Positions 9,132 through 59,813 of a DNA stretch of 64,000 nucleotides are shown here, in pieces. The DNA is from Brochothrix thermosphacta DSM 20171 = FSL F6-1036 (lineage in GTDB: Bacteria > Bacillota > Bacilli > Lactobacillales > Listeriaceae). The position numbers and the translations under genes were made by a program. The stretch lies in NCBI RefSeq assembly GCF_036884295.1, contig NZ_CP145608.1:1178001-1242000 (forward strand). Direction: 5' to 3'. Each line of letters begins with the position of its first letter. Positions within the stretch are counted from its first letter, which is position 1. A model generated the notes under the pieces. That model was not told the DNA's origin, did no database searches, and saw only the letters and a program-made list of their open reading frames with translations.

Positions 9132-10461
9132 AGTGGGAACAGTCCGTGAAGTATCATTAAGCATATTAGAAAAAATTGAGAAACAACAAGCATACAGTCA
9201 TTTATTGATTCATGATGCGATGACAAAAAATCATGTTAAACCGATTGATAAAGGTTTGTTAACAGAACTTGTTTACGGTACGATTCAACGCCAAATGACG
9301 TTGGACTTTTACATGGAGCAATTTGTATCTAAACCAGAAAAATTAGAAATTTGGGTCAAATTATTATTGCGTGTTTCTTTTTACCAGTTATATTTCCTTG
9401 ATAAAGTACCCGATCATGCCATCGTAAATGAAGCGGTCAACATTGCTAAAAAACGTGGACATGTCGGCGTGTCTAAATTAGTAAACGGCGTTTTGCGTAC
9501 AGCGATTCGTGAAGGTCAACCTGATGTTGCGGCATTAGTGAAAGAGCCAATGAAACGTTTATCAATTGAAATATCTGTGCCACTTTGGTTAACAGAACGT
9601 TGGGTTGCGCAATATGGCGAAGCTAAGACACGTGAAATTGGTGAAGCTTTACTTGTACCACCACATCAAACATTACGCGTGAACCCATTAAGAGGTAACA
9701 TTGATGAAATCATCGAAGCGCTCGTTGCTGATGGTTTTGAAGCAGAAGCCCATCCATTAGTACCTGAAGCGATCATGGTATTTGGTGGTAATGCTGCAAA
9801 TCATCCAATGTTCCAATACGGTGCGTTTTCAATTCAAGATGAAAGTTCAATGCTTGTTGCACATGCGCTACATCCAGAACCAGGTATGCGTGTGTTAGAT
9901 GCTTGTGCAGCACCGGGTGGGAAAACAACTCATATTGCTGAATTGATGAATGATGAAGGACAAATCGATGCATTAGATATTCATGCACATAAAACAAAAT
10001 TGATTGCACAAGGTGCTAAACGCCTAGGTCATACTATTATCAAACCATTCCAAGCGGATGCACGCCAATATGGTAAAGATATTGAAGAAGAATTATACGA
10101 TCGTATCCTTGTAGATGCACCTTGTAGTGGTTTTGGTGTTATTCGCCGCAAGCCAGATATTAAGTATCAAAAAACAGCAAAAGATGTGGCATCACTTAGC
10201 GTGATTCAATTTGATATTTTGGATGCACTTGCACCATTACTCAAAGTGGGTGGCCGTCTTGTCTATAGTACATGTACGATTGATGAAGATGAAAACCGTA
10301 ACGTATGGGAACGTTTTTTAGAAGCCCATCCTAACTACGAAAAAGCGCCTTTATCATTACCAAATGATTTAACAACGTTAGATCAAACGGATTTACAGTT
10401 GTTGCCAGACAATAATTTTAGCGATGGTTTTTATATATCTTCATTTAAGCGTATTCGTTAA
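9124..10461 (+). CDS. rsmB: 16S rRNA (cytosine-967-C5) methyltransferase RsmB
   Basis: The N-terminal third is a NusB-like RNA-binding domain. The C-terminal part is a Rossmann methyltransferase with the SAM motif DACAAPGGKTTH, the catalytic PCSGFG (Cys) and the STCTIDEDEN motif with the second Cys. The 445-residue length is normal. I take the GTG at 9124, overlapping the fmt stop, because it gives the usual five residues before TVRE. A second GTG at 9133 has a better spaced AGGTGA and is a real alternative. It sits in the fmt-rsmB-stp order typical of Bacillales. Confidence 0.93.
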   Translation: MNKVGTVREVSLSILEKIEKQQAYSHLLIHDAMTKNHVKPIDKGLLTELVYGTIQRQMTLDFYMEQFVSKPEKLEIWVKLLLRVSFYQLYFLDKVPDHAIVNEAVNIAKKRGHVGVSKLVNGVLRTAIREGQPDVAALVKEPMKRLSIEISVPLWLTERWVAQYGEAKTREIGEALLVPPHQTLRVNPLRGNIDEIIEALVADGFEAEAHPLVPEAIMVFGGNAANHPMFQYGAFSIQDESSMLVAHALHPEPGMRVLDACAAPGGKTTHIAELMNDEGQIDALDIHAHKTKLIAQGAKRLGHTIIKPFQADARQYGKDIEEELYDRILVDAPCSGFGVIRRKPDIKYQKTAKDVASLSVIQFDILDALAPLLKVGGRLVYSTCTIDEDENRNVWERFLEAHPNYEKAPLSLPNDLTTLDQTDLQLLPDNNFSDGFYISSFKRIR

Positions 10462-10481
10462 TTGTATAGAGGTGAATATAA

Positions 10482-11234
10482 ATGAGAGCAGTAGGCCAAA
10501 CAGATAAAGGTAAAGTCAGAACAAATAATGAAGACCGTGTGGCGATTATCACAAACCAAACAGGACAACAACTATTTGTTGTTGCTGATGGGATGGGTGG
10601 TCATCGCGCTGGGCAAATCGCCAGTGAGTTGACAGTGAGTTACTTAACCACTTATTTTGAGAAGTTAATGATTCGTATGGATGATGACCAAGCACAAAGA
10701 TGGTTGGGTCAAACTCTTCAATTAATTAACGAGAAACTTTTTCAAGAAGGCGAGTTAAACCCTGACCTAAAAGGGATGGGAACAACGATTGTTTGTGCGA
10801 TTGATATCGATGAGGACACATTAGCTATTGCGCATGTAGGCGATAGCCGTGCCTATATCGTTAATGAAAAAGAGTTCAAGCAAATAACAGAAGATCATTC
10901 ATTGGTACAAGAGCTTGTAAAAAAAGGTGAAATTTCAAATGAAGAAGCGAAGATTCATCCGCGACGTAATATTGTATTACGTTCTTTGGGTGTATCGGGA
11001 TTTGTAAAAGTTGAATGTCAGATTATCGAAAAAGAAAGCAAAGATATTTTGTTGCTTTGTTCAGATGGTTTGAATGACGCTTTGACCGAACAAGAGATGA
11101 TTACCCTGTTGACTTCGAAACTGACGATTGAAGATAAAGTAAAAAAACTAATTGATGCTGCAAATGCTCATGGTGGGCAAGATAATATTTCAGTTATTAT
11201 TGCTGTTTCTGAAAAGGGAGGTGACGAGTTATGA
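10482..11234 (+). CDS. stp: PP2C-type Ser/Thr protein phosphatase Stp (PrpC)
   Basis: A metal-dependent phosphatase of 250 residues that reverses phosphorylation by the kinase encoded next. PPM motifs are visible in order: the N-terminal RTNNEDR, DGMGGH, the GDSRAYI block, CSDGLND, and the C-terminal GGQDNIS, supplying the acidic metal ligands. It is soluble, with no signal peptide or membrane helix. The ATG follows GAGGTGA. Its stop overlaps the prkC ATG (ATGA), so kinase and phosphatase are made in coupled fashion. Confidence 0.94.
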   Translation: MRAVGQTDKGKVRTNNEDRVAIITNQTGQQLFVVADGMGGHRAGQIASELTVSYLTTYFEKLMIRMDDDQAQRWLGQTLQLINEKLFQEGELNPDLKGMGTTIVCAIDIDEDTLAIAHVGDSRAYIVNEKEFKQITEDHSLVQELVKKGEISNEEAKIHPRRNIVLRSLGVSGFVKVECQIIEKESKDILLLCSDGLNDALTEQEMITLLTSKLTIEDKVKKLIDAANAHGGQDNISVIIAVSEKGGDEL

Positions 11235-13249
11235 TAATTGGAAAACGACTGAGTGGTCGTTACGAAATTCTTCGTGTGATAGGTAGCGGGGGAATGTCTA
11301 ATGTCTATCTTGCGCGTGATGTTATTCTGGAACGAGATGTAGCAGTAAAGCTAATGCGTGTTAGCATGGCCAATGAAGAACAACTCGTTCGCCGCTTTCG
11401 AAGAGAAGCACAAGCAACCACACAATTAATGCATCCTAATATTGTTGATATTTTTGATGTTGATGAGGACCATGATAATCATTTTATCGTTATGGAGTAC
11501 ATTGCGGGGATGGATTTAAAAGCTTATATTAATCATGCTGCGCCATTGCCCTTATCGATTGTTGTACGTATGATGCTGCAGATATTATCTGCAATTTCTC
11601 ATGCGCATGGGCAACATATTATCCATCGAGATATTAAGCCTCAAAATGTCTTAATCGATGCAGAGGGTAATGCTAAAATTACAGATTTTGGTATTGCGAT
11701 GGCGTTATTTGAAACATCGATGACGCAAACGAATACTACCTTAGGTTCTGTGCATTATCTCTCGCCTGAACAGGCGCGTGGGGGTGTCGCGACGCCTAAA
11801 TCGGATGTTTATTCTTTAGGAATCATGCTCTACGAAATGATTACAGGTATTTTACCGTTTGACGGTGAATCTCCTGTTGCCATTGCAATTCAACAATTAC
11901 AATCACCGATGCCACTCCTATCAGATAAAGTGCCTGATATTCCAATGAGTTTACAAAACATCGTGATGAAAGCAACGGCAAAAGAATCAATTAATCGTTA
12001 CAGTACTGTTGAAGAAATGAAAGAAGACATTGCGACAGCCTTAATGCCTAGTCGTATCAATGAAGCACCGTATGATATTCATTCCGCTGATTATTCCGAA
12101 ACAAAAACAATTCCCATTCAAACAGCAACAATTAAAGATAAGATTGCCGACATTGAAGGTTTGGAAACGAATAAGGTTGATGAACCAATTATCGATCAGA
12201 AAAAAGAAAAAAAGAGCAACAAAAAAGTAAATAAAAAGCGCCGGTGGCTTATTATTATCATCGCATTCATAGCCATAGCTGGGATTGTGGGTTCATACTT
12301 TTACTACACGAGTCAAAAAACATATGCTGTAGCTGACGTCACTAATATATCGCAGCAGGCAGCGATTGCTCGTTTACAAAAAGATGGTTTTCGTATTGGT
12401 AAAACAACGGAACAAAACAGTGATAAAGTTGAAAAAGGCTATATCATTAAGACCGATCCAGAAGCGGGTGAAAAGCTCAAAAAAGGTGACACAATTGATC
12501 TCTTTATTTCCATCGGAAAGAAAGAATTCGCAATTGATGATTACCGAGGTAAAAATATCGATGATGTAAAAGAAGAGCTGGAAAAAGCGGGCTTCAAAAA
12601 AGTAACAACTACACCAGTAAATAGTGATGAAATAGAGACTAATGAAATTACTTCGCAAAGTATTCAAAAAGGCTTAAAAATTGTGCCTAGCGAGACAACA
12701 ATTGAGTTAGAATTTAGTTCAGGACCAGCTGCTATCACCTTGAAAGATTTATCAGGTTACAATAAAAGTTCTGTGAAAGATTATGCGACAGATAATGGCT
12801 TCGAATTGACAACCACTGATGAATTTTCAGATAAGGTTGCAGAAGGTCAAGTCATCTCACAAACACCTGAAGCAGGTACAGCGATGAATAAAGGTCAGGC
12901 ATTAGCCGTTGTTATCTCTAAAGGTGTTGAAAAACCGGAGAAAACGATTGATAGAAAACTGACGATTAAATATACGGGTGACGAAGATATAGCAGGTGAT
13001 CCTACAAAAGAAGATGAGGAAGACGAAGGCAATGACTCATCTTCTAGTGAAAAAGAAAAAACATCACAAAACATAAAAATATATCTTAAAGATAAAACGC
13101 ATAAAATAAGTGATGTGTATCAATCCTTCTCGATTACAGAAGACCATGATGTCACGTTATCTTTTGTGTTAGATGCAAAAACTGAAGGTGCCTACATTAT
13201 TGAACGTGATGGCGAAAAAATTGAGCAAGATACCGTTGTTTATGAATAA
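11231..13249 (+). CDS. prkC: PASTA-domain Ser/Thr protein kinase PrkC
   Basis: A 672-residue membrane kinase that senses muropeptides or lipid II in related species. Residues about 11-270 form the kinase: glycine loop GSGGMSNV (18-25), Lys40, HRDIKPQN and DFG. A basic linker precedes one membrane helix (near 338-360). Outside the cell are three PASTA repeats (about 362-570), followed by an acidic Ser/Glu-rich spacer and a further domain of about 70 residues that is not a clear PASTA. Neighbours are its phosphatase upstream and rsgA downstream, the standard Bacillales arrangement. Confidence 0.95.
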   Translation: MIIGKRLSGRYEILRVIGSGGMSNVYLARDVILERDVAVKLMRVSMANEEQLVRRFRREAQATTQLMHPNIVDIFDVDEDHDNHFIVMEYIAGMDLKAYINHAAPLPLSIVVRMMLQILSAISHAHGQHIIHRDIKPQNVLIDAEGNAKITDFGIAMALFETSMTQTNTTLGSVHYLSPEQARGGVATPKSDVYSLGIMLYEMITGILPFDGESPVAIAIQQLQSPMPLLSDKVPDIPMSLQNIVMKATAKESINRYSTVEEMKEDIATALMPSRINEAPYDIHSADYSETKTIPIQTATIKDKIADIEGLETNKVDEPIIDQKKEKKSNKKVNKKRRWLIIIIAFIAIAGIVGSYFYYTSQKTYAVADVTNISQQAAIARLQKDGFRIGKTTEQNSDKVEKGYIIKTDPEAGEKLKKGDTIDLFISIGKKEFAIDDYRGKNIDDVKEELEKAGFKKVTTTPVNSDEIETNEITSQSIQKGLKIVPSETTIELEFSSGPAAITLKDLSGYNKSSVKDYATDNGFELTTTDEFSDKVAEGQVISQTPEAGTAMNKGQALAVVISKGVEKPEKTIDRKLTIKYTGDEDIAGDPTKEDEEDEGNDSSSSEKEKTSQNIKIYLKDKTHKISDVYQSFSITEDHDVTLSFVLDAKTEGAYIIERDGEKIEQDTVVYE

Positions 13250-53099: not shown

Positions 53100-53221
53100 A
53101 CTTGTCAGGCAACTAATAATATGATAACATTACATGGTGACTGAAAAAATCAGTCCAATTAACGATATTCCGCTTTGCGTCAATAGTGCGAAAGAATGTC
53201 CGTTGAGGAGGAGAAAATTAA
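53100..53221 (+). ncRNA. Candidate L19 leader upstream of rplS
   Basis: The 131-base gap before rplS contains a perfect hairpin GACTGA-N5-TCAGTC (53139-53155) and further weak pairing toward the GAGGAGGAG site. Firmicutes have a structured L19 mRNA leader at this place that is thought to allow feedback by L19. I assign it by position and hairpin content only. Confidence 0.4.
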
Positions 53222-53633: not shown

Positions 53634-53940
53634 ACTGTCCTCGTAGCGGATTTATCCGCTTTACGAGGACAGTATGGGACGGAAATTGCGGAGGCAATTG
53701 AGTACCAATCCTTTGATTAAAATCGTTGCGAATTTATTCGTTTTACGAGAACAGTATGGGTGCTAATATCGTAGTGGATTTATCCACTTTACGAGGATAG
53801 TATGGGACGGAAATTGCGGAGGCAATTGAGTACCAATCCTTTGATTAAAATCGTTGCGAATCTATTCGTTTTATGAGGACAGTATGGGACGACGGAGCGA
53901 CAGCGAGTACCAATCCATAGTGAATGGAGTACCACTCCAT
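53634..53940. repeat. Tandem hairpin repeats (about 128-bp period)
   Basis: Units begin with a hairpin such as GCGGAT-TT-ATCCGC (53646 on) or GTGGAT-TT-ATCCAC (53774 on), continue TTTACGAGGA(C/T)AGTATGGGACGG, then a second hairpin AATTGC-GGAG-GCAATT and GAGTACCAATCC. Positions 53643 and 53771 start near-identical copies, 128 bases apart, with half-units between (GCGAAT/ATTCGT arms) and a diverged last unit to 53916 plus AT-rich copies of GAGTACNACTCCAT. No coding frame is supported. Confidence 0.8.
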
Positions 53941-54041: not shown

Positions 54042-54070
54042 AACCCCCTAAAATCTAATTTTAGGGGGTT
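54042..54070. terminator. Terminator of the WYL gene pair
   Basis: AACCCCCTAAAA-N5-TTTTAGGGGGTT, perfect over twelve pairs. It lies just after the minus-strand WYL gene stop. On the minus strand GTTTTG follows, on the plus strand TATTATT. Confidence 0.8.
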
Positions 54071-54075
54071 TATTA

Positions 54076-55053
54076 TTAAAAATTATCTAATAGCTGTGCT
54101 TGTGCGTCGACACGTTCTTTAATTTTAGCTACAAATTCTGTGGGGCTTGTAACGGTTATAAAGGGTCCAAATGATAGTAGGCGAATGAGTAGTTCTGTTT
54201 CATCGCCAAGATAATAGTGAATTGTGAGTTGATAGCGCGTATCATCTAAACGTTGTGTGCTTTTATTGTAGTCAGCAAAATGTAGCATGCTGCGTTCTAA
54301 GGCTTTGCGTTTATCAACAAGAATACAAGTCATCTGTGCTTGTCTACGCCGTGCTGTAATTGGTAATTCAAGGTACTTGCGTGTCGCCTTAGCTGGATGA
54401 ACAGTAAGCATACGATTGAGATTCAGTGTGACTTCAAAGCGACTGTTGCGTAACAAGCGCCATGCACGTAAGCGAAAGAGATTGTTTTTCTGTGAATATT
54501 CCAGTTTAACAGGTAAAAAGAGCGCTTTTTTACTGGGAATATTCGGACGTCGTTGATACTCAATTTTCACAGGTTGCTCTGTGTTTATCGCAGCGAGGAG
54601 TTGTTTAAAATGAGCGTGTTGTTGTTTTTGCTCAACCAGCGAGTCTACTTGGTTAAAATGATCATAATAAGTCACCGCTTCTAAATCAAATAAAGGTTCA
54701 ACATGGATAAGTTGCTGTTGTAATTCTGCAATCTCAGCCTTATCCAAAAAGAATAATAATCGAGGATCATTTATAAGTGTCTTTAGCCACCGTCTCTCTA
54801 TATTGGTATTTATAAGCGGTGTTTTATTTTGTGTGATAGGAGACCAATGATCTATCGTTTCTTCTTTTAACAAATACCATGGGGTGCGCTGATTTGTTAA
54901 TGAAGGCAATAGTTGAAACGCTGTCTCGTCAAATCCTTGCTCTTTGATGAGGCATTCCAGTTCTTTTACCGTCAAAGTCTGCTGTTTACTTAAAATTGTT
55001 CGAACAATAGTGAAATAGGTGCCATGAACTTCGTGAAATAAAGAATCAGTCAT
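54076..55053 (-). CDS. WYL-domain regulator, second gene of pair
   Basis: 325 residues. The N-terminal third is helix-turn-helix-like (TVKELECLIKEQGF). The middle contains a WYL-type sandwich (about 155-245: VKIEYQRRPN, FLPVKLEYSQKNNLFRLRAWR), followed by a C-terminal extension domain. WYL proteins bind nucleic-acid or nucleotide ligands and regulate defence and repair genes. An ATG at 55062 lies directly on the ribosome binding site, so I use ATG 55053, behind GAGGAGG. It overlaps the first WYL gene by eight bases, so both are one unit. Confidence 0.75.
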   Translation of the reverse strand: MTDSLFHEVHGTYFTIVRTILSKQQTLTVKELECLIKEQGFDETAFQLLPSLTNQRTPWYLLKEETIDHWSPITQNKTPLINTNIERRWLKTLINDPRLLFFLDKAEIAELQQQLIHVEPLFDLEAVTYYDHFNQVDSLVEQKQQHAHFKQLLAAINTEQPVKIEYQRRPNIPSKKALFLPVKLEYSQKNNLFRLRAWRLLRNSRFEVTLNLNRMLTVHPAKATRKYLELPITARRRQAQMTCILVDKRKALERSMLHFADYNKSTQRLDDTRYQLTIHYYLGDETELLIRLLSFGPFITVTSPTEFVAKIKERVDAQAQLLDNF

Positions 55054-56287
55054 GAATACCATCCTCCTCAGGCGTGTGATAAAGCGTAATTAACTCTTTC
55101 ATATCATCAATGAAGTGCGCTTTCCAAGTGTTATCATTCGTTTCAATCGAAACGATACGCCCAATAAAAGTTCTAAGGAAAGGATTAATCGCATAGAGGT
55201 CAATGAGTTCGATTTCAAAAACAACTGTCATAGAATCAAGTCGTTTACTGCTACCCATTCGCTGTTCGCGAGCAAGACGAGTAATTAAATAATCTTCAGT
55301 ACCTTCTTGAACCCGCAACAACACCCGTAAATGTTTTAAAGGTTGTCTATTAAAGCTGCCATTCCATGACGTATTTTTTTTAAGAGCAAAACGTTGCTTT
55401 ATTTTAGGATAATTAGTAATGCTGTCCATCATTCTTACTTCTTTAATATTATCCAGTCTTATTGATGTTAATAGTTTTTTGTGCAAGTAGCCCACTAAAT
55501 ATTGGCGACCCGTTTCCGTACTAACATAAAGTGATAAGGGTGTAATATCTGTTTCTTTTCCGTTATATTGCATCACCTTTAAAGAAAAGTGGAGAGAAAT
55601 TGCTTCTAAACAATTTAGAGCAATTTGTTCGTCAAGGGTATGGACAATAAAATGATGTTTAAAAGCAAAGGGACTCTCACTGTCTGAATCAATTTGATTT
55701 AAAAGAAACTGGCCAACGACACCACCAGGCATTACTTCCTTAAAAAAGTGCAGGACGGGGACAAGATTAGCAGAAATGTGTAGCGGTGCTGCTATTTTAT
55801 AAGACAGTCGCTTTTCATTTTCTACTTCTTGAAGAACTCCTAATTGGCAGTATTCTTTCAGCTTGTTGCGAACAGTAATCTCAGAAAATGTGGGTGCCTC
55901 ATCAAACTGGCTCAAATAACAATCATGAAGAAGCTCAGTTAATTGTGTGAGTGACAGCAAATTGTCATTAACCAAACAATCAAGAAGTGTGAAATGTAAG
56001 AAAATATCATTTTTAGTAAAACTTTTTGTTTGCCATAACTTAAAAAAAGGATTGGCTGCGGGTTGTTGCTGTTTCAATTCTAAACGGATACTTTTACCAT
56101 TACTATTTTGTTCAGACTCAATGTATTGATGTAAATAACTTTCAATGCGACGACGTTCATTATCGTAACTCCGTAGGCTTTTTTCGCGAAATTCTTCACG
56201 AAGTTTAAAACCATTAATGTAGAACTCGCGGGCATACAAACGAATACTATTAAACTCTTTTATTAATTCATTAAACTGTCTGCTCAT
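55046..56287 (-). CDS. WYL-domain regulator, first gene of pair
   Basis: 413 residues, larger than usual. A charged helical N-terminus (REFYINGFKLREEFREKS, RRRIESYLHQYI), a winged-helix-like part (about 90-170: EITVRNKLKEYCQLGVLQEV), and a WYL-type domain (about 215-300: LKVMQYNGKETDITPLSLYVSTE) with a C-terminal extension. Divergent from rtcB across 142 bases that include AT-rich DNA and small palindromes such as TAACGCGGTTA (56352-56362). Two unequal, overlapping WYL genes suggest a heteromeric regulator; this is an inference. Confidence 0.7.
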   Translation of the reverse strand: MSRQFNELIKEFNSIRLYAREFYINGFKLREEFREKSLRSYDNERRRIESYLHQYIESEQNSNGKSIRLELKQQQPAANPFFKLWQTKSFTKNDIFLHFTLLDCLVNDNLLSLTQLTELLHDCYLSQFDEAPTFSEITVRNKLKEYCQLGVLQEVENEKRLSYKIAAPLHISANLVPVLHFFKEVMPGGVVGQFLLNQIDSDSESPFAFKHHFIVHTLDEQIALNCLEAISLHFSLKVMQYNGKETDITPLSLYVSTETGRQYLVGYLHKKLLTSIRLDNIKEVRMMDSITNYPKIKQRFALKKNTSWNGSFNRQPLKHLRVLLRVQEGTEDYLITRLAREQRMGSSKRLDSMTVVFEIELIDLYAINPFLRTFIGRIVSIETNDNTWKAHFIDDMKELITLYHTPEEDGIHD

Positions 56288-56429
56288 GTTAATTCCCCAC
56301 TCATTTATTTATTACATTCTATTATATCATGTAAGCTCGCAACATTTTTTTAACGCGGTTACTTTTAAAATATTTTACAATAAAGGCAGTTAAGAGATAT
56401 AAAAGATATTAGAAATGAGGAGTGAGAAA

Positions 56430-57662
56430 ATGTTTGTACATTATAATGAAACTCAAAATTACGTTCCAATTAAGGTCTGGTTGCCAGAAAAAGAACTTGA
56501 GGATAATGTTCTTGCACAGACGAAAGAGTTAGCTCAATTGCCGTTTGTCTTTAAATGGGTAGCATTGATGCCAGACTGTCACTACGGGTATGGTATGCCA
56601 ATCGGTGGTGTTATGGCAGCAAAAAATGGAATAGTCCCTAATGCTGTTGGTATGGATATCGGTTGTGGCATGTGTTATATTCAAACTGATATGTTATATG
56701 ATGATTTGGCAAAAGTTCAACACGATCGTCAACCGCTTTTGAAATTAATTGTGAATCAAGTCATGCGAGATGTACCCGTTGGTTACAATCTACATAGAGA
56801 TAAGCAAACATCGGATGTTGTCGATAAAGCTTTAATTGAAATGGCAAATGACCAAAGTTTACCTGGTGGAATAGAACTTCTAGAAAATGCTTATTACCAA
56901 ATTGGAACGTTAGGTGGAGGTAATCACTTTATCGAATTTCAACAAGATACTGAGGGTTATATTGGTATCATGCTTCACTCTGGAAGTCGCAATTTAGGAG
57001 CGAAAATTTGTGAGTATTTTAATGGGGTTGCAAAGGAACTCAATGTTAGCTGGTACAGCAATGTTCCGGAAAATAATCAATTACCTTTTTTACCAACCTC
57101 AACGGCAGAAGGTCAAGCGTATCTTAAATGGATGAATATTGCTTTAGATTATGCCTATGAAAATCGTGAGAAAATGCTTGAGCAAACAATGGCAATTTTC
57201 ACTCGTTTGGTATCTAAACATATGAATAGGGATGTTAATTATAGTATGCGTATTAATTGTCATCATAATTATGCCGCTTTGGAAAATCATTATGGTGAAA
57301 ATGTTTGGGTGCATCGAAAAGGTGCAACTCGTGCACGTGAAGGTGATTTAGGAATTATTCCGGGAGCAATGGGATCATCAAGCTATCTTGTTAAGGGCTT
57401 AGGAAATGCCGAGAGTTTTAATTCATCATCACATGGCGCTGGACGCGTGTATTCTCGTACAAAAGCGAAAGCAGAAATTTCAGTGGAACAAGTTATTGTT
57501 GATTTGAAAGAACAAGATGTTATTCTTGGAAAAGTAAAAAAAGCGGATGTAGCAGAAGAAAGTCGCTTCGCTTATAAAGAGATTGATGAAGTAATGGCTA
57601 ATCAACAAGATTTAGTCGTTCCGATAAAAAAATTGAAAACGATTGGTGTAATCAAAGGGTAG
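56430..57662 (+). CDS. rtcB: RNA-splicing/repair ligase RtcB
   Basis: RtcB joins RNA ends with 2',3'-cyclic phosphate or 3'-phosphate to 5'-OH using GTP and Mn2+. In this 410-residue protein all key residues are present: Asp76 and Cys79 in MDIGCGM, GGGNHF with His166, MLHSGSR with His183, CHHNY with His278/279, and the guanylylated His335 in NSSSHGAGR. The frame opens at 56415; ATG 56430 is set by GGAG. It is the first of two genes, divergent from the WYL pair, 15 bases before the 691-residue protein. Confidence 0.93.
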   Translation: MFVHYNETQNYVPIKVWLPEKELEDNVLAQTKELAQLPFVFKWVALMPDCHYGYGMPIGGVMAAKNGIVPNAVGMDIGCGMCYIQTDMLYDDLAKVQHDRQPLLKLIVNQVMRDVPVGYNLHRDKQTSDVVDKALIEMANDQSLPGGIELLENAYYQIGTLGGGNHFIEFQQDTEGYIGIMLHSGSRNLGAKICEYFNGVAKELNVSWYSNVPENNQLPFLPTSTAEGQAYLKWMNIALDYAYENREKMLEQTMAIFTRLVSKHMNRDVNYSMRINCHHNYAALENHYGENVWVHRKGATRAREGDLGIIPGAMGSSSYLVKGLGNAESFNSSSHGAGRVYSRTKAKAEISVEQVIVDLKEQDVILGKVKKADVAEESRFAYKEIDEVMANQQDLVVPIKKLKTIGVIKG

Positions 57663-57677
57663 AGAAGAGGAGACGTT

Positions 57678-59753
57678 ATGGTAAAAGCTATCATTAATCT
57701 AGAGAATCATCATTATGATAATTTTGAAAAAAGTATAAAAGATGACTTCGCGGAGATTATTAAAAATAAAAAGCAGTTATTTAAGGTTAGGATATCAACA
57801 GATTTATGGGAAGCTTATATCGATGCTCTGGATCCCAATGAAAGGCAACAATACAAGTGCAGTTGCTGTCGAAGCTTTATTAGAAAATACGGCGACTTAG
57901 TAATTATAGACACTGATGGTCGTTTGAAATCTGCTATTTGGCATCCCGCTAGCGCACCTAGCTATTTCAAAGAAGCAGTCGGAAATTTGAAATTGTTAGT
58001 TGAAGAAAGTCGAGTTACATCTGTTTTTCATTCCGATCAACGTCATTTAGGTAAAGTTATGTCTGGTGAAAGACATCATTTGGCTGTAGCTTTACCTGAA
58101 AGTTATATCAATCAGTCCGTTTGGAAAAAAGCTAATCAGTTAATGATTGAAAGTCAAAAAGACTTTGAACAACTTTCAGCTGCTTTAAACACATATAGGA
58201 CAGAAAGTGTTGCAACAATAAAAGCGCTTATCTTATCTGATGTACTTTATCGAGGGGGACGTTTTAGTGATATGATCTCTTGGTTTAATCAAGTGATACT
58301 ACATGTTGAAAATGAAACTGATCTCGAAGTCATTCGACATCTAACATGGTTATACGTTGCCGAAGCTAAATCAGGCTATTGTGATATAAAAAAATCTGTG
58401 GTTGGAGCATTGATAGCGGACTATGAATTTGGGATACCAATTGAGACGATAATACAGCGTTATAACGAAAAGTTAGATCCTGCTAACTATATGCGCATAA
58501 GAAAAAAACCTTCAGAAGAAGAAGTTATTAAAGCTGAAGAATTAGTTGGGAAACTGGGTATCACGGATTCGTTAAAACGTCGTTATGCAAAGTTAGAAGA
58601 TATTCCAACCTTTATGTGGCGTTCTAGATATAGTGATAATGGAAATGTATTTAGTAAAATAATTACTCAAAGTAGACCGTTTGAGATTCCTCGATTACGT
58701 GTACCAATAAAAACAATGACTTGGAAAAAATTCAAGGAAACGGTGCTGCCGAAAGCAACGAATATCGAAGCAAAAGTTGAGAACACAAGTCGTCTGATGG
58801 GATTAGTAACCGAAAGTATTTCAAATTCAAAACCACTTTTTCAATGGAATAATGCTTTTTCATGGTATTATCATGGTGGTGTCGACGGGAAAATAAAAAA
58901 AGGTAGCCAGTCGGTGAAAATCAGCGATGATAGTAGTGAAAAAGATCGTGAAATTGAACGTCGCATTCAAGTAGCTGGTGGTAAATATGATGATAATGAT
59001 ATTCGTTGTTCATTGAGATGGGAAAATTATACTGATTTAGATTTACAGTGTCTCACTCCAAAAGGCAAGCAGATAGACTTTAGTCGCAATAAAGTGGGGA
59101 AAGGAAAAATGGACGTTGACATGAACCTTATGGGTGAGAGTGAAATGCCTGTTGCAAACATTCGTTGGCCCAAAAATACTGCAGCAAATGGTTCGTACTG
59201 TTTTACTGTTGTTAACTATGATGATCGAAGTAACGGAAGTGGTACTTTTTATAAGGTTGAGTTAGAAGTTGAAGGATATATTTACCATTATCACGGTTAT
59301 TTTCCGTTTGATGATATGCATGAACATGTTTTTGAGTTCAACTATGAAAAAGGACGTCCAATTAATCTTATAGGGGTATATCATAACTTGGGTTATAGTG
59401 ATTGGAACCTTGAAATAGGTAATTTTAAGACGGTGAACGCTATCGTTAAATCGCCAAATTTATGGGATGGTAAAGATGCTGAAGAGAGTGGTAATCATAC
59501 ATTTTTCTTGCTAGAAGGATGCCACGATAAAAGCAAGGGCAAAAGCAGGGGATTCTTTAATGAAATGTTAAGATCTGATTTTAAAGAGATAAACAAAATT
59601 CTTGAAGCTTATACCGCTTCAACGCCTATACAAGGAGCAGAGGATGCAACTGCCTGTGGGCTTGGTTTCAGTAAGGAATCAACTTGGAATTTAACGCTAA
59701 AAGTTACTGCTGATGGATTGGAACGATTGATTTTAATTGATCGTTTTGATTGA
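57678..59753 (+). CDS. Large uncharacterised protein linked to RtcB
   Basis: 691 residues, no signal peptide or membrane helix. I do not recognise the family. The N-terminal part has a Cys motif (YKCSCCRSFI, Cys61, 63, 64) followed by DTDGRLKSAIWHP, a possible metal site. A helical middle (about 150-330) follows. The C-terminal part from about 440 is beta-rich with CSLRWENYTDLDLQCLTPKG and YCFTVVNYDDRSNGSG, reminiscent of DUF2135-type beta sandwiches. Ribosome binding site AGAGGAG, 15 bases after rtcB, so co-translated. A partner or substrate-recognition role in RNA repair is likely but unproven. Confidence 0.7.
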   Translation: MVKAIINLENHHYDNFEKSIKDDFAEIIKNKKQLFKVRISTDLWEAYIDALDPNERQQYKCSCCRSFIRKYGDLVIIDTDGRLKSAIWHPASAPSYFKEAVGNLKLLVEESRVTSVFHSDQRHLGKVMSGERHHLAVALPESYINQSVWKKANQLMIESQKDFEQLSAALNTYRTESVATIKALILSDVLYRGGRFSDMISWFNQVILHVENETDLEVIRHLTWLYVAEAKSGYCDIKKSVVGALIADYEFGIPIETIIQRYNEKLDPANYMRIRKKPSEEEVIKAEELVGKLGITDSLKRRYAKLEDIPTFMWRSRYSDNGNVFSKIITQSRPFEIPRLRVPIKTMTWKKFKETVLPKATNIEAKVENTSRLMGLVTESISNSKPLFQWNNAFSWYYHGGVDGKIKKGSQSVKISDDSSEKDREIERRIQVAGGKYDDNDIRCSLRWENYTDLDLQCLTPKGKQIDFSRNKVGKGKMDVDMNLMGESEMPVANIRWPKNTAANGSYCFTVVNYDDRSNGSGTFYKVELEVEGYIYHYHGYFPFDDMHEHVFEFNYEKGRPINLIGVYHNLGYSDWNLEIGNFKTVNAIVKSPNLWDGKDAEESGNHTFFLLEGCHDKSKGKSRGFFNEMLRSDFKEINKILEAYTASTPIQGAEDATACGLGFSKESTWNLTLKVTADGLERLILIDRFD

Positions 59754-59786
59754 TTTTATAAATAAATAGGTTATTTTATCCACTTG

Positions 59787-59813
59787 AGCAGCCTATTTTG
59801 GCTGCTCTTTATT
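59787..59813 (+). terminator. Terminator after the rtcB operon
   Basis: GAGCAGCC and GGCTGCTC arms with a six-base loop, followed by TTTATTATATT. Confidence 0.8.

Follow-up and report, generated by a model that had tools for sequence, protein, structure and literature searches.

The gene for the RNA ligase RtcB in Brochothrix thermosphacta lies opposite a pair of WYL-domain genes, and 14 loci in which WYL genes face RNA-repair genes have a common promoter element at a fixed distance from the -10 box. This shared element is what is new here. We think it fairly likely that the locus is an inducible RNA-repair operon with its own dedicated regulator, a PafBC-like WYL1-WYL2 pair, which would control RtcB and a phage-derived accessory protein.

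In the window, by which we mean the whole 64,000-nucleotide stretch of DNA that was analyzed, the locus has four open reading frames: two minus-strand WYL genes (54076-56287), a divergent rtcB and, behind rtcB, a gene for a 691-residue protein (Table 1). The layout described in the initial annotation is all present in the sequence, including the 17-base overlap of the WYL genes, the divergent order and the 15 bases that separate rtcB from the 691-residue gene. The terminators placed at both ends of the locus were found as well, as consensus matches only.

Table 1. Positions of the features of the WYL-rtcB locus in the window.
Feature	Position	Strand	Basis
WYL1, divergent HTH?-WYL-WCX regulator, 328 aa	54076..55062	-	weak PF13280/PF25583, family WCX matches, PafBC profile match
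WYL2, partner WYL regulator, 413 aa	55046..56287	-	PADLOC WYL 6e-7, family WYL/WCX matches, WYL1 homology
rtcB RNA ligase, 410 aa from likely start	56430..57662 (ORF opens 56415)	+	PF01139, 1uc2 alignment
691-residue protein, phrog_1735	57678..59753	+	PHROG match, tblastn, AF2 model
Conserved promoter element CGCAACATTTTTTTAA, candidate WYL-pair site	56338..56353	+	comparison of intergenic regions
-10 box TACAAT, rtcB promoter	56376..56381	+	sequence and anchored comparison
Terminator-like hairpin ending WYL transcript, 13 pairs, bidirectional	54042..54070	-	consensus match
Terminator-like hairpin ending rtcB-691 transcript	59786..59807	+	consensus match

The host genome is a single contig of 2.56 Mb. 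The neighbors of the locus genes are ribosomal and repair genes, and pafA and the Pup-proteasome genes are not among them. The block is a variable insert, with other genes after rplS in one further genome of the genus and in one member of the family. WYL2 and rtcB were not found in that family member or in the sole other genus genome, which is 85% complete and gives a weaker absence call. A direct repeat of 120 nt is present twice (53641-53888, 95% identity) in the DNA that separates the terminators of rplS and WYL1. Upstream of rplS, at the expected site (53162-53202), the leader of ribosomal protein L19 (RF00556) gives a match below threshold.

From its sequence, we regard the identity of RtcB as certain. 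It matches PF01139 over its full length (E 6.6e-111) and aligns along its length with RtcB from P. horikoshii (1uc2). In this alignment the motifs MPDxH, D-x-x-C-G, GNHF, H-S/T-GSR, HN, VHRKGATRA and SHGAGR are intact, and the Asp, Cys and His metal ligands and the histidine nucleophile in SHGAGR are present, as expected from the earlier description of an rtcB with all catalytic residues. The start is probably the ATG at 56430 with the RBS GAGGAG, giving 410 aa, rather than 56415, because the listed ATG at 56415 overlaps this RBS. The host has no other rtcB gene. Neither an RtcR regulator nor an RtcA cyclase is among the ORFs of the locus, a search within the locus for a Y RNA or tRNA-like partner found none, and TROVE (PF05731) was not found anywhere in the host genome. 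The absence of TROVE and RtcA from the locus had been noted correctly, and RlaP and Hen1 are absent from it as well. The accompanying claim that the make-up is unlike described RtcB loci held only in part: TROVE, RlaP and Hen1 are partners in sister loci, so the locus departs less from the described RNA-repair syntax than had been thought.

The WYL assignment is weak for each sequence taken singly and becomes firmer through family alignments. Alone, WYL1 gives weak scores with PF13280 (E 7e-4), WCX (PF25583, 3e-3) and the PADLOC WYL profile (4e-13), and WYL2 matches the PADLOC WYL profile only (6e-7). At the family level, 10 of 11 WYL1 members have a WCX match, and both WYL and WCX matches occur among the WYL2 members. 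The WYL1 and WYL2 profiles match each other with an E value of 1.8e-5, with the homology in the WYL domain, and the two genes are adjacent in nearly all of the intact loci that we read. WYL1 and WYL2 thus have the PafBC-type trait of two neighboring WYL-WCX genes of common ancestry. When the WYL1 profile was compared with solved structures, the best match was PafBC (6sj9, E 1.3e-4), and BrxR scored 0.78. The match of the WYL2 profile to PafC was marginal (E 0.85) and the AF2 model of WYL2 is poor (pLDDT 47). The WYL2 family was not found in IMG/VR.

Of the 298 genomes that represent the order, 16 have WYL2 and 16 have an rtcB of the window type. The WYL pair is divergent from this rtcB in 13 of the 16 WYL2 genomes, compared with 0.86 co-occurrences expected (hypergeometric 1.7e-17, a guide only since related species are not independent). 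At L133 and L137, WYL2 faces Hen1 and PNKP or Hen1, PNKP and RlaP and there is no adjacent rtcB; at L138 WYL2 is degraded. Among the 13 loci with rtcB are some that combine the WYL pair with rtcB and RlaP (L130), with rtcB and Hen1 (L134), or with rtcB, a 707-aa protein and Hen1 (L135). The comparison shows that the repair enzyme is swapped behind one regulator, with either rtcB or hen1 opposite the WYL pair. The conserved pair is beside repair genes in 15 of the 16 loci of the order, which bears out the earlier idea that the WYL genes are tied to RNA repair, and this link is strongly supported by context. The 707-aa protein of L135, encoded between rtcB and hen1 (10075-12195), is a phage-family protein that is phrog_33734-like. 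At L139 (4961-8702), rtcB is interrupted by a 604-aa ORF resembling a group II intron reverse transcriptase.

Across the phylum, distant WYL pairs face TROVE, RlaP, Hen1/PNKP or Band_7 (L173, L183-L185, L188 and L189), and the family also occurs without repair genes (L177, L178, L180-L182, L187 and L191). Some of the wider-family loci look CRISPR-like or unrelated, so the wider WYL-pair family is not repair-specific. In two Clostridia-type genomes, WYL1 is fused in frame to an RtcB of another type than that of the window, giving a protein of 756 aa (L110:5545-7815 and L174:5114-7381). Because this length is kept at 66% identity in the two genomes, the WYL1::RtcB fusion is a real protein and no sequencing error.

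Comparison of the divergent intergenic regions gave the promoter element CGCA[AC]C(H)T6-8, which is CGCA[AC]C with a run of 6-8 T behind it, in some cases after one intervening base. It starts 38-39 bp before the -10 box, in front of rtcB and hen1 alike, and is present in 14 of 15 intact WYL loci of the order. These are the loci with the element before rtcB (the window, L129, L131, L132, L134-L136, L139-L141, L200 and L201) and before hen1 (L133 and L137). In the rtcB promoter, a TTGACA-like -35 is absent at 16-18 bp from the -10 box. The element was derived from these same 14 intergenic regions and its mere presence there is no independent test. The spacing to the -10 box, the placement of matches in DNA from relatives and the single exact match in the host genome were not used in defining it. 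By a simple estimate, the chance of the fixed spacing arising in six lineages is about 5e-7. All 13 matches in 577 kb of sequence from relatives (both strands) fall in WYL/repair intergenic regions, and the 15-base form has a single exact match in the 2.56-Mb host genome, at this locus. With one mismatch, there are 8 matches to the element in the host genome versus 17 to a reversed control pattern. The element was not found upstream of three window-type rtcB genes that have no WYL pair. One variant of the site is common to the window and L129, the nearest relative (WYL2 60% identical), and another, in which the T run is followed by AAAAGATA or ATAAGATA, to the more distant WYL pairs. Site variants that track the relatedness of the WYL pairs are expected if the WYL pair reads the element. 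The promoter common to the WYL pair and the repair genes is apparently regulated, in keeping with the regulatory role first proposed for the WYL genes. On the WYL2 side, the intergenic region also contains an imperfect inverted repeat, TTACATTCTAT/ATATCATGTAA (56312-56334), which possibly serves autoregulation.

PafBC, a heterodimeric WYL activator that is activated by ssDNA, adapts sigma-A to promoters that carry an element of their own, and no heterodimeric WYL proteins other than PafBC and its orthologues have been reported (PMC11804915). Damaged RNA was earlier proposed as a possible PafBC ligand (PMC6789036), and WYL regulators have been proposed, in general terms, to detect RNA ends with a cyclic phosphate and to govern RNA repair (PMC9503650). 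The promoter in this study is suited to an activator because there is no -35 box, the element is upstream and the spacing is fixed. This layout and the structural match of WYL1 to PafBC point to a PafBC-like heterodimeric activator. The layout is no more than compatible with sigma adaptation, and we consider the regulatory mechanism to be a well-founded prediction. Most likely, WYL1 and WYL2 would form a PafBC-like heterodimer that binds a signal of nucleic-acid damage, for which cleaved tRNA or other RNA ends are the probable candidates. The ligand-bound pair would then bind CGCAACATTTTTTT upstream of the -10 box and let ordinary RNA polymerase initiate at this promoter without a -35 box. RtcB would join the 2',3'-cyclic-phosphate and 5'-OH ends made by ribonuclease toxins or phage-defense nucleases. 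The 691-residue protein, predicted to be co-transcribed, may be an accessory that takes the place of the TROVE or Band-7 scaffold-type proteins of sister loci.

BrxR, the characterized WYL regulator of BREX defense loci, is a repressor (PMC9122601). By analogy with BrxR/CapW, the WYL pair could repress a constitutive rtcB promoter and be released by a nucleotide or oligonucleotide ligand. The divergent, autoregulated gene arrangement is typical of repressors and the inverted repeat on the WYL2 side also fits with this. However, an element upstream of the -35 position, with fixed spacing to the -10 box and no -35 consensus, is the layout of an activator-dependent promoter, and WYL1 matches the solved structure of PafBC better than that of BrxR, so we regard repression as unlikely. 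The nature of the signal can also be questioned. PafBC senses ssDNA (PMC11804915), DriD reportedly does likewise (PMC12340889), and the RNA repair operon of Salmonella is induced by DNA damage via tRNA cleavage (PMC7790460). The operon might then respond, like PafBC, to DNA damage or ssDNA, and RtcB would be one of several outputs of a general response to damage. This seems quite improbable to us, given that the repair genes opposite close WYL pairs all act on RNA (RtcB, Hen1, PNKP and RlaP) and that the element occurs once in the host genome, so that no wider damage regulon is seen. A PafBC-like activator that responds to damaged RNA is the reading we prefer.

The 691-residue protein belongs to phrog_1735 (PHROG E 7.8e-153), with homology over the whole protein, and has no Pfam or NCBIfam match. 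Homologues of phrog_1735 occur in phage-like plasmids, in 494 phage records (tblastn) and in hundreds of viral contigs, many of the phages being 130-250 kb in size. The protein is 35-45% identical to members from Bacillales phages and phage-plasmids. Its AF2 model is confident (pLDDT 88) and matched no PDB fold, only uncharacterized phage proteins. With no TROVE match and no PDB fold match, the idea that it is a TROVE protein was rejected. The conserved residues C61, C64, H134, R273, R301, E629 and E643 could be a metal or RNA site. An inserted beta domain at about residues 425-570 is optional and is missing in the L010/L011 forms. Its likeness to DUF2135 was by eye with Pfam support of E 0.1 only, and this assignment was dropped. 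The match in G734 is confined to the inserted domain and has no repair genes nearby. In 41 of 101 loci, such as a viral contig (L063:11962-12366), phrog_2018 (about 132 aa) comes directly after the 691-family gene, and the two are a conserved two-gene phage unit.

When genomes were scanned with the 691-residue sequence alone, no relatives were found, the patterns being too specific; an alignment scan found 16. The protein was not found in 297 other genomes of the order and 398 sampled genomes of the phylum (~700 Bacillota), nor in the other WYL-RtcB loci of the order. An rtcB is near a homologue in 1 of 16 loci in bacterial records. Tight linkage of phrog_1735 and rtcB was looked for in phages and not found, the two being within 10 kb in about 3 of 80 viral loci. 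The 691-residue homologues are thus usually away from rtcB, an outcome that the initial annotation had named as counting against its reading. The claim that the four genes form one system stands for the WYL pair and rtcB, with their linkage and common promoter, and is weakened for the fourth gene.

Besides the copy in the window, phrog_1735 is next to rtcB on an Eleftheria plasmid (L010) and in Clostridium C8-1-8 (L110), where WYL2 and WYL1::RtcB are present too; on a C. difficile plasmid (L005) it is within 2 kb of rtcB. The copies adjacent to rtcB (window, L110 and L010) are in separate branches among phage sequences, and phrog_1735 has joined rtcB on at least three separate occasions. At L174, the gene after the WYL2-WYL1::RtcB core is a broken TROVE gene (PF05731 E 6e-7), and L110, with a core 66% identical, carries a 691-family gene where its sister has these TROVE remains. 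A 691-family protein is thus in a TROVE slot at least once. Mainly because of this slot in L110, it is plausible that the 691-residue protein is a repair accessory. We give some credence, short of favoring it, to the possibility that the gene is a hitchhiking phage or counter-defense gene on the rtcB transcript and that WYL1-WYL2-RtcB alone is the working system. There are sister loci without the gene, the protein is found only here among the ~700 sampled Bacillota genomes, and its nearest relatives are in phages and phage-like plasmids. Yet the gene is 15 bases from rtcB with a common terminator, its 691-codon frame is intact with host-like base composition, and separate phrog_1735 lineages are beside rtcB; the Clostridium lineage among these is accompanied by the same WYL pair.

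With the phage-family protein added to the operon, the locus is a concrete candidate system for signaling and repairing RNA damage. The promoter element and paired WYL regulator give a concrete answer to how broken RNA could be sensed in Gram-positive bacteria without RtcR, and the repeated pairing of rtcB with phrog_1735 is a functional lead for an uncharacterized protein of hundreds of large phages. Tentatively, and with more doubt than confidence, we suggest that the WYL pair may be a second class of heterodimeric WYL activator, sensing RNA damage instead of ssDNA and turning on any RNA-repair cassette across from it, and phrog_1735 a new kind of RNA-repair accessory repeatedly adopted by bacteria.

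The locus resembles the RtcR-controlled rtcBA operon of enterobacteria (rsr-yrlBA-rtcBA in Salmonella) in having an RtcB ligase and a divergent dedicated regulator, in that an RNA-binding partner is optional (there Ro60/TROVE) and in that sensing of cut tRNA is proposed. Unlike that operon, where the regulator is a CARF sigma-54 activator, it has a WYL pair and a sigma-70-type promoter, and a phage-family protein instead of RtcA, TROVE or Y RNA. With PafBC, the mycobacterial DNA-damage activator, it has in common tandem WYL-WCX proteins and a special element at a fixed distance from the -10 box with no -35 box. It differs from PafBC in having one local target rather than about 150, no pafA/Pup neighborhood and a linkage to RNA repair, and the element is further upstream than the -26 motif of PafBC. 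The 691-residue protein is homologous over its full length to phage phrog_1735 proteins, but here the gene is in a bacterial rtcB operon, without the frequent phrog_2018 partner. RNA-repair modules with RtcB, Hen1-Pnkp, RlaP and TROVE were reportedly described by Burroughs and Aravind in 2016, and the loci in this study have the same enzymes and a similar modular exchange of ligase and cofactor. Compared with those modules, the phrog_1735 partner, the WYL pair with its promoter element and the WYL1::RtcB fusion appear to be different.
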